Assembly: GCA_947468275.1 (NCBI GenBank)
Contig: CANIKO010000001.1
Coordinates: 62,001-126,000 of the forward strand
Direction of reading: 5' to 3'
DNA from: Bacteroidota bacterium
Lineage (GTDB): Bacteria > Bacteroidota > Bacteroidia > NS11-12g > UBA9320
DNA: 64,000 nucleotides
Numbering within the stretch: position 1 is the stretch's first letter; every line of letters begins with the position of its first letter. Below, piece after piece: positions 16,179 through 20,068 of the stretch. The translations under genes and the position numbers were made by a program. Under the pieces are notes generated by a model that worked only from the letters and a program-made list of their open reading frames with translations, was not told the origin of the DNA and made no database searches.

Positions 16179-17804
16179 CTAAAAAATAAAAGTTATACCT
16201 GCAATCCCATTGAAGCCATAGGATGGATAATTAAACCAACGTTGATAGGTTTGATTAGTAAGATTATTAACATCTACAAAAAAGGAAATGTTTTTTCTTA
16301 TGCGATAATCAGCGCCAATATTTATATCAGCAATGATTGGTAGTTTTTGGCTTTCATTACTCCAAATATATTTGGAGTAGCGGGTTCCAATCACATATAT
16401 TTTCGTATGGAGTGCAAGTTTTTCAGCAATGGTTCCTGCTATTTTTGTATTCCACTCAAAGTCGGGGCGCTGTATCGCGTGGACTGATGAAGAGGGGTTG
16501 TATGAAAAATAAGTAAAATTGGTGCTAATTTTTAATTTTTCAAATCGGTTGTAGTTTAGTCCAGCATTGAATTTGAAGAGCCCAACATTTTCATATGATA
16601 TTACAAATTTGTGCAAGGCAAGAGTATCACTCAGATACATTGGAAGGTTATTAATAGTTTGTTGCGATAATTCAAGCATATAATCAAACCCGCTACCCAG
16701 TTTGCCTTTTATCCCACCAAAAATAATATACGGTGTATATTGGTTTTTTAAAGCTTGATTTTCGGCAAGAAAAGCATTTTCATTATAAAGAGTTCTTGTA
16801 GAACCTTTGGTAAGGCCGCCTCCCAATCCTGCATAAGCTTTCATTTTTTCGGGCACTACGTAATAATCTACTCTAAATTCGGGATATAAATAAAAATGTT
16901 TATCCAATGAATCAAGCATTATGGATGCAAAAGCCCCCATCGTTAAATCCACATCTTTATAGCGCATTTTATAAACCGGATTTATATCAATAAAATTTCT
17001 GTTATACTTTACCGAATCAGGGCCTGAGGCAAATCCTTCGAAAGCAGTATTTATATGCAACTCGCCATTGCCCACCTTTCCTCCAGTTTTATTGCTTAAT
17101 CGATAACCAATTTCATTTTGTTGCACAATAGAAAACCTGTATGCATCTAAATCAAAAGTGGTTTTTAATTTTTTAGAGGTTTTGATATTATCGTAATGAA
17201 TATTGGCGGTAATATTATTTATAGCCTGTTTAACAGAATCCTTTTTAAAATTATCTGAATCATGATTGTACCCGTAATAATTATAACCATATCGTGAATA
17301 TCCCAATTGGCCACTCAATGTATTTCCTCTCATAAATTTAGCTCCTTGCAATGAAACATTATCATCCATAAATGCCTTATAGGCAGGTTTTCCATTGGAG
17401 GATAAATGATGTGCGGACAAACCGTAAGCATAATTATTGCTTTTGCCATTGTGCAGTTCAATGTGCAGCAAAGGAGTTGTGTAATTTCCAAAACCGGCTT
17501 TAATAAAATTACCATTCACAAAAGCATCGTTTTTAGTGCGGTATTCCTGAGCTGAAATTGCTGTAAAAGCAGGTTGTACTTTATACCGCAAGTCGGGAAA
17601 CGAATAGGTAAAATTTAAAGCTTTTATTTCGGGCTCCTTCATTTCGGGGGCTGATTCCACCCGTTTGGCATCGCTAAGAACGGGGCGGTATTTGGTATAA
17701 ATATCTACCTTGTCCAAATCTTTTACCGTATCACGCTGGGCGTTTACGGTTATTGGAACAAGAAATAAAATAATAGTGAGTAATTTTAAAAAACGAGCTG
17801 TCAT
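16179..17804 (-). CDS. Outer-membrane beta-barrel protein, TonB-receptor-like barrel without plug
   Basis: 541-residue protein with a signal peptide (residues 1-22, ending ITVNAQ), a short periplasmic segment (DKVDIYTKYRPVLSDAKR), and many amphipathic strands. The C-terminus, FFVDVNNLTNQTYQRWFNY followed by a final strand ending ITFIF, is like the last strands of TonB-dependent receptors. No plug domain is evident, and the barrel begins soon after the signal. It may be a receptor-derived porin or a partner in envelope transport. It lies 141 bases upstream of the HU-SPOR gene on the same strand and may be co-transcribed with the HU-SPOR, transducer and folC genes. Substrate unknown. Confidence 0.72.
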   Translation of the reverse strand: MTARFLKLLTIILFLVPITVNAQRDTVKDLDKVDIYTKYRPVLSDAKRVESAPEMKEPEIKALNFTYSFPDLRYKVQPAFTAISAQEYRTKNDAFVNGNFIKAGFGNYTTPLLHIELHNGKSNNYAYGLSAHHLSSNGKPAYKAFMDDNVSLQGAKFMRGNTLSGQLGYSRYGYNYYGYNHDSDNFKKDSVKQAINNITANIHYDNIKTSKKLKTTFDLDAYRFSIVQQNEIGYRLSNKTGGKVGNGELHINTAFEGFASGPDSVKYNRNFIDINPVYKMRYKDVDLTMGAFASIMLDSLDKHFYLYPEFRVDYYVVPEKMKAYAGLGGGLTKGSTRTLYNENAFLAENQALKNQYTPYIIFGGIKGKLGSGFDYMLELSQQTINNLPMYLSDTLALHKFVISYENVGLFKFNAGLNYNRFEKLKISTNFTYFSYNPSSSVHAIQRPDFEWNTKIAGTIAEKLALHTKIYVIGTRYSKYIWSNESQKLPIIADINIGADYRIRKNISFFVDVNNLTNQTYQRWFNYPSYGFNGIAGITFIF

Positions 17805-17940
17805 TGAAATATAAACGACAAATTTATTTTTTTAGCGTGAGATGACATGGAGTCATATATCCACAGCCACATAGAGTGTATAGTTTAGGGGAAAAGTAGT
17901 TTTTTTTTAGAAAGGTTAAAGTAGAAAGATTAAAGGATCT

Positions 17941-18000
17941 TTCCCAGCCAATGTCTCCCCGCTGAGGCGGGCTTGCGCGAAGGAAGGGCTGACTTGGTGG
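17941..18000 (+). repeat. REP-like element R1
   Basis: TTCCCAGCCAATGTCTCCCC ... GGGCTTGCGCGAAGG ... GGGCTGACTTGG. CAGCC and GGCTG at the ends and GCGGGC/GCCCGC-like inner text give an imperfect palindrome. It lies in the 354-base gap before the RAYT gene. Confidence 0.75.
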
Positions 18001-18020
18001 AACAAACAATCAAAACCTCC

Positions 18021-18086
18021 TTCCCAGCCAACGTCTCGCCCCGGCAAGGCCTTGCGCAATGGTGGGCTGACTTGGCGGCTTTCTAA
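18021..18086 (+). repeat. REP-like element R2
   Basis: TTCCCAGCCAACGTCTCGCC ... GGCCTTGCGCAATGG ... GGGCTGACTTGGCGGCTTTC. Same orientation as R1. A degenerate tail copy (ACGGCTAACTTGCCAGCTTTC split as ACGGCTAACTTG and CCAGCTTTC) follows at 18103-18125. Confidence 0.78.
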
Positions 18087-18158
18087 CGTTACCTTAAAAA
18101 TTACGGCTAACTTGCCAGCTTTCAATATATCCCACCAAAACGATGTATTTTTGCTTTC

Positions 18159-18749
18159 ATGCCTGTAAAAGTTAGCATAAAAGAGCCGCTAGGAACTTAT
18201 TTCATTACGTTTACCTGCGCCAATTGGCTACCTCTAATTCAATTAACAAATGCTTATGACGCCGTTTATAAGTGGTTTTATACCTTGGTAAAAAACGGGC
18301 ATCATATTTTGGGGTATGTAGTAATGCCTAATCATGTTCATGCTTTAATATCCTTTAAAAATATAGGGCAATCCATTAATACCCTAGTGGGAAATGGCAA
18401 ACGGTTTATGGCGTATGAACTTATAAAGCGGTTTGAAGCACAAGGAGAAACAAAGGTGTTGACCCATTTGCAACTTGCGGTAACGGCCAAAGACCGACTT
18501 AGAAATAAAAAACACGAGGTTTGGAAATATTCGTTTGACTGGAAGGATTGCCAAACCAATGAATTTATGCTTCAGAAACTGAATTATATGCACCTAAATC
18601 CATGCAAAGGCAAATGGAATCTTTCAAAAACGCCTGAAGACTATGAACATAGTTCGGCAAAGTTTTATATTTGTGGTATGCGGGGTGTTTATCCAATAAC
18701 TAATTATCTAGAACTTGCCGATATTGATTTTACAGGAGATACAATATGA
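18159..18749 (+). CDS. REP-associated tyrosine transposase (RAYT), Y1/HUH family
   Basis: 196-residue single-strand DNA transposase of the IS200-like Y1 superfamily. It has the metal-binding H-hydrophobic-H motif at residues 59-61 (VVMPNHVHALISF) and the probable nucleophile Y143 in LNYMHLNPCKGKW. It starts with FITFTC near residue 15, as RAYTs do. The gene is bracketed by REP-like palindromes, two upstream in direct orientation and one starting 11 bases after its stop, which is the classical RAYT/REP layout: the enzyme recognises and moves the palindromes. A TATTTTTG box ends five bases before the ATG, so the transcript may have almost no leader. All key residues are present, so it may be active. 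Confidence 0.88.
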   Translation: MPVKVSIKEPLGTYFITFTCANWLPLIQLTNAYDAVYKWFYTLVKNGHHILGYVVMPNHVHALISFKNIGQSINTLVGNGKRFMAYELIKRFEAQGETKVLTHLQLAVTAKDRLRNKKHEVWKYSFDWKDCQTNEFMLQKLNYMHLNPCKGKWNLSKTPEDYEHSSAKFYICGMRGVYPITNYLELADIDFTGDTI

Positions 18750-18760
18750 GTATAGTTATA

Positions 18761-18853
18761 GAAAGCCGCCAAGTCAGCCCACCACTTCACAGGCCCACCG
18801 AGGCGAGACGTTGGCTGGGAAGGTGGTTTTTGGGAGAGACTCGGGAGGGAAGG
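18761..18853 (-). repeat. REP-like element R3 / left arm of about 90-bp inverted repeat
   Basis: GAAAGCCGCCAAGTCAGCCC ... GGCGAGACGTTGGCTGGG ... GGGAGAGACTCGGGAGGGA. It is inverted relative to R1 and R2. It matches the reverse complement of 19943-20033 at about nine positions in ten over its whole length, forming the left arm of the cassette. Confidence 0.85.
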
Positions 18854-18939
18854 AAAAGTCAGTCATTTATTTAATTATTTTATTAATTAATCATTTTTTC
18901 ATTTTATTAAATCATTATTTGTATGAAATATAATATCTA

Positions 18940-19581
18940 ATGAAAAAAATAATATTAATTACCGCCTCATTAATTTTTTGTGGTTTTGCCAAATCGCAAA
19001 CCAACGATGACACTGCTACCACTATTGCTGATGCAATAATTGCCCGAGCAATTGCAATAAATAATTTACCCCAAAGTGATTATTGCTATTTTAACACAAC
19101 TATGAATGGTAATTTGAGTAATGAAGACATTGTTACAGCCTTAAGTGGGAATACTGAAATAGAGGGAATGTTAACAATATTTGAAGCCACAGAAGAGGCT
19201 TTAATTGATGTCGGTGCTTCAGAATTTGCAAGTAAAGTGGATAATATGAACCTTATCGCAATTAAAGTTGGGGTTGGCGTATTTGGTGGTACTATCAATG
19301 GGGGACCATGTTCTGTATATAATGCGGCAATGGCTGAATGTGCTACTGATTATTCAGCTTGTGCTTTTTGGGGGGGATTAGGATGTGCCGCTTTTTCTGG
19401 GCCATTTGTTGCACCTTGCCTCGCAGCTGCTTTTGGTATTTGTACAGCAAGTGCTCGTACATGTATTGGAAGTGCTAAAGCTGGTAGTCCAGGTTGTTCA
19501 GGCGGTGGTGGGGGAATTATTTTTAATCCTTGGGTAGAAACTTGGGGAATTACAACGTCTAACCCTTACTGTAATCAATAG
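18940..19581 (+). CDS. Secreted Cys-rich protein, candidate bacteriocin-like precursor
   Basis: 213-residue protein with a Sec signal peptide (residues 1-20, ending KSQ), an acidic region of about 80 residues, a glycine-rich hydrophobic stretch, and a Cys/Ala/Gly-rich domain (124-186) holding eight cysteines at 124, 134, 141, 149, 160, 168, 175 and 186. Two more cysteines lie at 49 and 211, so the mature protein has ten, an even number that fits disulfides. The Cys/Gly/Ala-rich hydrophobic domain resembles in style the halocin C8-type bacteriocin domain; this is from memory and not from a search. The next gene, seven bases downstream, encodes a small membrane protein that could be an immunity factor. 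Other possibilities are an adhesin or a lineage-specific envelope protein. Confidence 0.55.
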   Translation: MKKIILITASLIFCGFAKSQTNDDTATTIADAIIARAIAINNLPQSDYCYFNTTMNGNLSNEDIVTALSGNTEIEGMLTIFEATEEALIDVGASEFASKVDNMNLIAIKVGVGVFGGTINGGPCSVYNAAMAECATDYSACAFWGGLGCAAFSGPFVAPCLAAAFGICTASARTCIGSAKAGSPGCSGGGGGIIFNPWVETWGITTSNPYCNQ

Positions 19582-19588
19582 TAAAATA

Positions 19589-19834
19589 ATGAAACTTCTA
19601 GTTTACCTAATTGGTTTTTTTGGCTTATCATTATTTTTTTATTATAAAAATCCAATTTTTGTTGTAATTATGTTGCTTATAGTTTCTGTAATGAAATTTT
19701 TCATATATAAAAAAGAAGCTAGAGTAAATGCTGATCTTTTTATTTTAGGTGGTTTAAAAACAGAACTTCAATATACATTTTATGCGGCGGTTTTTTCTGT
19801 TATAGTCTATACAGCACTTTTATTTTTAAATTAG
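19589..19834 (+). CDS. 81-residue membrane protein, candidate immunity partner
   Basis: Very hydrophobic protein with three probable transmembrane helices (about residues 2-17, 23-40 and 58-79) joined by short basic loops (KKEARVNADLF). No family is recognised. It starts seven bases after the Cys-rich secreted protein stops, so the two are almost certainly co-transcribed. Small membrane proteins translated with secreted bactericidal peptides are often immunity factors, which is the basis for the suggestion. An alternative is a generic small membrane protein of unknown role. Together the pair fills the space between the inverted REP-type arms. Confidence 0.6.
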   Translation: MKLLVYLIGFFGLSLFFYYKNPIFVVIMLLIVSVMKFFIYKKEARVNADLFILGGLKTELQYTFYAAVFSVIVYTALLFLN

Positions 19835-19886
19835 ATTAATGGTATGCAACATTCTTGTTTGCCTTCCAAGATACTCCCCGAAACCA

Positions 19887-19942
19887 CCTTTCCAGCCAAT
19901 GTCTCGCCCGGTTGGGCTTGTGAGGTGGCGGGCTGACTTTTA
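19887..19942 (+). repeat. REP-like element R4
   Basis: TTCCAGCCAATGTCTCGCCC ... TTGGGCTTGTGAGG ... GGGCTGACTT. Direct orientation, immediately before R5. The spacer preceding it (ACTCCCCGAAACCACC) echoes the spacer before R5 (TCTCCCCAAAACCACC), so the pair looks like a tandem duplication. Confidence 0.75.
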
Positions 19943-20040
19943 TTCCCTCCCGAGTCTCTCCCCAAAACCACCTTCCCAGCCAACGTCTCGCCCGGTTAGG
20001 CTCGTGAAGTGGAGGGCTGACTTGGCGGCTTTCTAATATC
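19943..20040 (+). repeat. REP-like element R5 / right arm of about 90-bp inverted repeat
   Basis: TCCCTCCCGAGTCTCTCCCC ... CCCAGCCAACGTCTCGCCC ... GGGCTGACTTGGCGGCTTTC. Its reverse complement aligns with 18761-18853 with only scattered differences, mostly in the central loop. Confidence 0.85.
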
Positions 20041-20068
20041 ACCTCAAAATATTTTAAGACACGACCGA

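Follow-up and report, generated by a model that had tools for sequence, protein, structure and literature searches.

A RAYT unit and a patchily distributed gene pair among REP-type hairpins of a Bacteroidota genome

Can a RAYT carry genes other than its own? TnpA-REP transposases are known to cut and rejoin REP hairpins as single strands; to our knowledge, RAYTs have been described as single-copy, vertically inherited, domesticated transposases, and REPtrons as not moving. The question is raised by a locus in a 64,000-nucleotide stretch of a Bacteroidota genome (the window), for which a preliminary description had reported two genes between inverted REP-type arms, next to a RAYT, and had proposed that the RAYT mobilises them as a cassette. 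The arms, described as about 90% alike over about 90 bases, were recovered in a repeat search of the window as 98-nt segments that are 90% complementary (18759-18856 and 19938-20035) and 1081 nt apart. A chance origin of the arms was ruled out: the binomial probability of at least 88 matches in 98 positions (p=0.27) is ~6e-39 for one fixed placement. Both enclosed genes correspond to ORFs (18940-19581 and 19589-19834), the neighbouring RAYT is confirmed by profile matches and motifs (18159-18749), and each arm is a complete REP-type unit that belongs to the family of that RAYT. Omitted from the description were three further copies of the arm repeat nearby, so the arms (R3 and F5) are two of five REP copies, the others being F1, F2 and F4.

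The copies and genes are arranged over 2.1 kb in the order F1 F2 - RAYT - R3 (reversed) - gene pair - F4 F5, with all features except R3 on the plus strand. F1 (17931-18000), which is decayed, and F2 (18012-18085) are the outer and inner halves of a left-end doublet, and both lack the CTTCCCTCCCGAGTCTC extension. They are followed by the RAYT, a TnpA-REP-like Y1 transposase of 196 aa, and by R3 (18759-18856, minus strand), a full unit of ~98 bp that is at once the right end of the RAYT unit and the left arm of the reported cassette. The gene pair encodes a Cys-rich, exported protein of 213 aa with a signal-like N-terminus (18940-19581) and a hydrophobic protein of 81 aa (19589-19834), probably a two-helix membrane protein. 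To the right lie F4 (19859-19939), the outer half of a second doublet, and F5 (19938-20035), a full unit of ~98 bp and the right arm of the reported cassette. The GGCGG/TTTCTA side of F1, F2 and R3 points to the RAYT, and the CTTCCCTCCC side of R3, F4 and F5 is turned towards the gene pair, which begins about 80 bp after one REP unit and ends 25 bp before the next. The direct doublets that bound the block are 71% alike over 177 bp. Because the likeness of F5 and F2 continues for ~14 bp outside the REP (20036-20049 resembles the 14 bp after F2, on the upstream side of the RAYT), the sequence suggests that F4F5 is a copy of the left-end doublet of the RAYT unit.

Is the repeat really a REP? Copies aligned from four genomes of the genus define a unit of ~98 bp (CTTCCCTCCCGAGTCTC...TTCCCAGCCAACGTCTCGCCC...GGGCTGACTTGGCGGCTTTCTA) with one hairpin that has two bulges (CC.GCCAA.GTC..GCCC / GGGC.GACTTGGCGG). 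Over 18 copies, 94.8% of the cells pair, versus 23-52% when the pairing is slid by 1-3 columns, and in six copies one base pair shows a compensatory change from A-T to C-G. Given the conserved pairing and the compensatory change, the repeat reads as a REP-like hairpin without a GTAG tag. Its folding energy was no better than that of shuffled sequences, making the free-energy test uninformative. Typical REPs carry a guide tetranucleotide, GT[AG]G, on their 5' side; the foot of the hairpin shows no GTAG/GTGG in any of the copies aligned, and the REPs of subclass 2.6 RAYTs are described as lacking this tag (PMC6006769). Among the 39 genomes searched, REP matches occur in that of the window itself (G000, eight) and in three of its six congeners (G001-G006), namely G004 (twelve), G001 (two) and G006 (one), and in no others; an exact motif of the repeat was not found in IMG/VR. 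R3 and F5 are 89% identical, and a lone REP on contig C2 of G000 is 89% identical to R3 and 90% to F5. The 90% match between the arms is thus of family level and the arms are ordinary copies, R3 being the RAYT's own right-hand REP.

The RAYT scores below the cut-off of both profiles that match it, NCBIfam REP_Tyr_transpos (E 3e-19, 69 bits against 80) and Pfam Y1_Tnp (E 2e-4, 22 bits against 23). The HuH motif NHVH and YMHLNP can be read directly in its sequence, as expected of a Y1 HuH transposase related to TnpA-REP, and its gene lies between REP hairpins in inverted orientation, further copies of which occur at other places in the genome. Searching the PDB by sequence with the protein returned nothing. 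NHVH fits the NH[LIV]H of subclass 2.6, and YMHLNP is near YIH[QN]NP, as is the YMHQNP of a paralogue on contig C9. The host is assigned to Bacteroidota by its gene content and by a family-level relative that is named as Bacteroidia. The RAYT probably belongs to Quentin subclass 2.6, equivalent to Bertels group 5 (PMC6006769), whose members occur in Bacteroidetes and are flanked by atypical secondary structures with genomic copies (PMC6006769).

Comparison with empty sites in related genomes, proposed in the preliminary description, redraws the limits of the insert. All six congeners carry the left-hand gene (16179-17804) together with the formate-THF ligase gene and lack the block 17904-20049 there. 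G005 aligns with the window up to 17904 and again from 20049, with 22 bp between. Five congeners have 4-72 bp in place of the block, and the sixth, G003, has a different insert, in which a REP-free ORF6N-domain gene (PF10543, E 8e-36; L058 6530-7250) adjoins a decayed duplicate of the 3' end of the ligase gene (fhs). Given six empty sites and the ORF6N insert, the block is lineage-specific and the site is an insertion hot spot. Since the whole block, RAYT included, is missing from the site in congeners, the real unit is larger than the reported cassette, and the insertion is not bounded exactly by the two arms, its left edge being at 17904 and not at the left arm. Neither a target-site duplication nor an exact excision boundary of the block was found. 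No congener has an intermediate with the RAYT unit alone at this site, and arrival of RAYT and gene pair in one step is therefore at least as parsimonious.

The Cys-rich protein belongs to an orphan family. The cargo was found in five of 97 genomes (that of the window and relatives), and a broad search, which sampled 395 genomes across the phylum, found it in only one, the window's own. A small hydrophobic partner is kept beside four of the five homologues of the Cys-rich protein. Pairs with this gene order are present in L136, a Bacteroidia MAG, and in the order-level relatives G052 and G040; G075 has the first gene only. A paralogous pair (40% and 25% identity) lies between hflX and thrS on contig C5 of G000 (L065 5215-6158), without REP arms, and is absent at this locus in congeners. 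The pair is thus an accessory module of patchy distribution, with no need of the arms. The families have no Pfam, NCBIfam or PADLOC match, and an AlphaFold model of the cargo from six sequences reached a mean pLDDT of 50. A phage or plasmid origin was considered and set aside, as neither IMG/VR nor PLSDB yielded the cargo protein. From the layout alone, one might guess that the exported protein is a secreted effector and the small membrane protein its immunity partner.

RAYT units elsewhere in the genus bear on mobility. The closest relative of the RAYT, on contig C34 of G004, is 89% identical over the first 139 residues and is interrupted by a stop. It has the same FF-RAYT-R layout as in the window but lies beside the purK neighbour gene; purK and this neighbour are directly adjacent and RAYT-free in G000, G005, G003 and G002. 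RAYTs with inverted REP-type ends also occur in G001 and on contig C9 of G000, at yet other places, the REP sequence of the latter differing from that in the window. No RAYT match was found in G002, G003, G005 or G006. Elements of the form F-deltaRAYT-R', which have in common the REP and a remnant of the RAYT 3' end, are present at unrelated sites, five in G004 and one in G006. Beyond their CTTCCCTCCC side the sequences are unrelated, and contig ends cut two of the six. On contig C4 of G000, a RAYT 5' start lies between a divergent and a full REP. Such a pattern of an element with internally deleted derivatives points to mobility of the RAYT unit. Empty sites were examined for two RAYT units only, that of the window and that beside purK in G004, and both fit insertion; repeated loss may have occurred at these two sites instead. 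The assemblies are drafts, and some of the REP loci are located where contigs end.

Several features of these loci were recorded in passing. The F-deltaRAYT-R' elements are MITE-like, at ~300 bp (L093, L094, L095, L096 and L091 2577-2900 in G004; L099 4625-4960 in G006). The second RAYT unit of G000 (L062, G000:C9:92000-102000) encodes a protein with 66% aa identity and has its own REP with a GCTGAGTC/GACTCAGC stem. It is flanked by a 660-bp direct repeat (L062 4261-4920 and 5827-6493, 91%), the second copy of which begins right at the end of the REP, within a gene for a membrane protein that by eye resembles a glycosyltransferase. In G004, the purK locus next to the RAYT unit is split, and ~103 bp of purK intergenic sequence are found on either side of it (L066 1054-1156 and L092 113-215, 84%).

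Do REPs of this family adjoin other genes? As the preliminary description had suggested, related loci were searched for the same ends with other or no cargo, and both a solitary REP and a differently filled pair were found. Contig C62 of G004 holds R (50-153), two small ORFs, a PIN-domain protein, an XRE-ImmA protein (PADLOC RmrA-like, E 1e-40) and F (2582-2677). This F belongs to a MITE-like unit, and the left arm is at a contig end. The left end of C62 overlaps the start of contig C11 (the purK side), while on its right C62 shows synteny with another region of G000, which appears to place it at a rearrangement breakpoint; the junction with purK was resolved as far as a contig overlap. On C2 of G000, the lone REP accompanies a ParE/RelE-type toxin with its antitoxin in a ~1.1-kb insert (L063 4364-5540) between secA and purD that is missing from G005, G003, G002 and G001. 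The C2 insert also contains a tandem ~185-bp repeat. With these loci, association with cargo is recurrent, which does not prove transport by the RAYT. The cargo unit of the window occurs once in its genome, the C5 pair having no REP arms.

So, how did the block arise? On the observed anatomy, empty sites, dispersed RAYT-derived units and cargo elsewhere, we favour, at a probability of roughly 60%, a REPtron islet made of a mobile-looking RAYT unit, a foreign two-gene module and a second left-end-like doublet at an insertion-prone site. In the direction and order of events that we infer, the RAYT unit (F1F2 - RAYT - R3) would move as a unit in the genus and REP units would spread; RAYT unit and REPs probably came to the intergenic region beside the formate-THF ligase gene by RAYT action, with the RAYT as presumed catalyst. 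The gene pair would have joined either as a passenger enclosed by REP ends or through an insertion of its own at this hot spot. A later insertion of the REPs around a resident gene pair would be favoured by the armless pair on C5, yet none of the six congeners has the pair at this site. Since the site is empty of the block in all of them, the arms do not look like later insertions round conserved genes, the case that the preliminary description had foreseen; five REPs in 2.1 kb, with few others in the genome, are also not random scatter, and we consider this history very improbable.

More credit, while still unlikely, goes to a cargo cassette truly mobilised by the RAYT, in which cleavage at REP ends (R3...F5 or F1F2...F4F5) would carry the genes as a single-stranded passenger, in the manner of a mobile insertion cassette. 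Of the preliminary proposal, it holds that the arm family is seen alone and around other cargo and that the site is empty in six congeners. REP units bracket the pair tightly, RAYT-derived MITE-like units are dispersed, a lone REP adjoins a ParE-type pair in an insert missing from four congeners, and a second R-cargo-F arrangement in the same orientation encloses other cargo (XRE-ImmA/RmrA-like and PIN) in G004, which would be coincidence under independent accretion. The cassette as a separate unit is not supported, because the insert also contains the RAYT and the left REP doublet. The arms are no more alike than unlinked REPs, neither a second R-pair-F in the genome nor a second copy of any cargo cassette was found, a pair that lacks arms is present at a different variable site (C5), and the host site takes REP-free insertions too. 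In the G004 case, a MITE-like unit supplies the right arm, the left arm lies where a contig ends, and the junction resembles a rearrangement breakpoint. Alternatively, gene transfer between relatives that share the flanking genes, followed by homologous recombination, may have brought in the whole block at once, RAYT and REPs being parts of the donor locus. The flanks are conserved at a site that varies between species, and the 660-bp duplication on C9 (91%) and the 103-bp purK intergenic duplicate hint at recombination; however, the relatives searched yielded no donor of this block and the site lacks a duplicated flank; we consider this route improbable.

The REPtron islet thus favoured has partial counterparts among known systems. 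Mobile insertion cassettes and passenger-bearing insertion sequences hold passenger genes between transposon-type ends; here, unlike in such cassettes, the ends consist of REP hairpins that belong to a Y1 transposase, and mobility of the cargo is hypothetical. As in REPINs and BIMEs (PMC3116915, PMC8049555), inverted REP pairs would be non-autonomous RAYT partners, but the spacer is ~1.1 kb with two genes rather than tens of bases, and copies per genome are few rather than hundreds. TIRYTs and TIRtrons (PMC3733652) share long inverted repeats that bound a Y1 transposase, some forming repeat families; identity with them was rejected because their terminal inverted repeats carry GGGGWSAS and no hairpins, whereas here the hairpin is conserved, the motif is not in the aligned repeats, and the repeats also enclose neighbouring genes. 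Closest are the REPtrons of subclass 2.6 (PMC6006769), in which inverted imperfect-hairpin repeats flank the RAYT with few copies elsewhere. According to PMC6006769, REPtrons do not seem to transpose as a unit, and no evidence of mobility has been reported for tnpAREP (PMC8266576). Unlike described REPtrons, the units here lie at different places in congeners, have internally deleted derivatives and, in the window, enclose a foreign pair.

This evidence for REPtron mobility is more interesting than the cassette itself. That the RAYT is a full transposase moving its own REPtron and also accessory pairs, toxin-antitoxin-like or other, between REP hairpins is a tentative and rather doubtful proposition; if true, REPtrons in a Bacteroidota genus would be composite gene-carrying elements. 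With RAYT units at different sites, internally deleted MITE-like copies and adjoining foreign modules, the genus would offer a natural system for studying REPtron mobility and cargo carriage directly.
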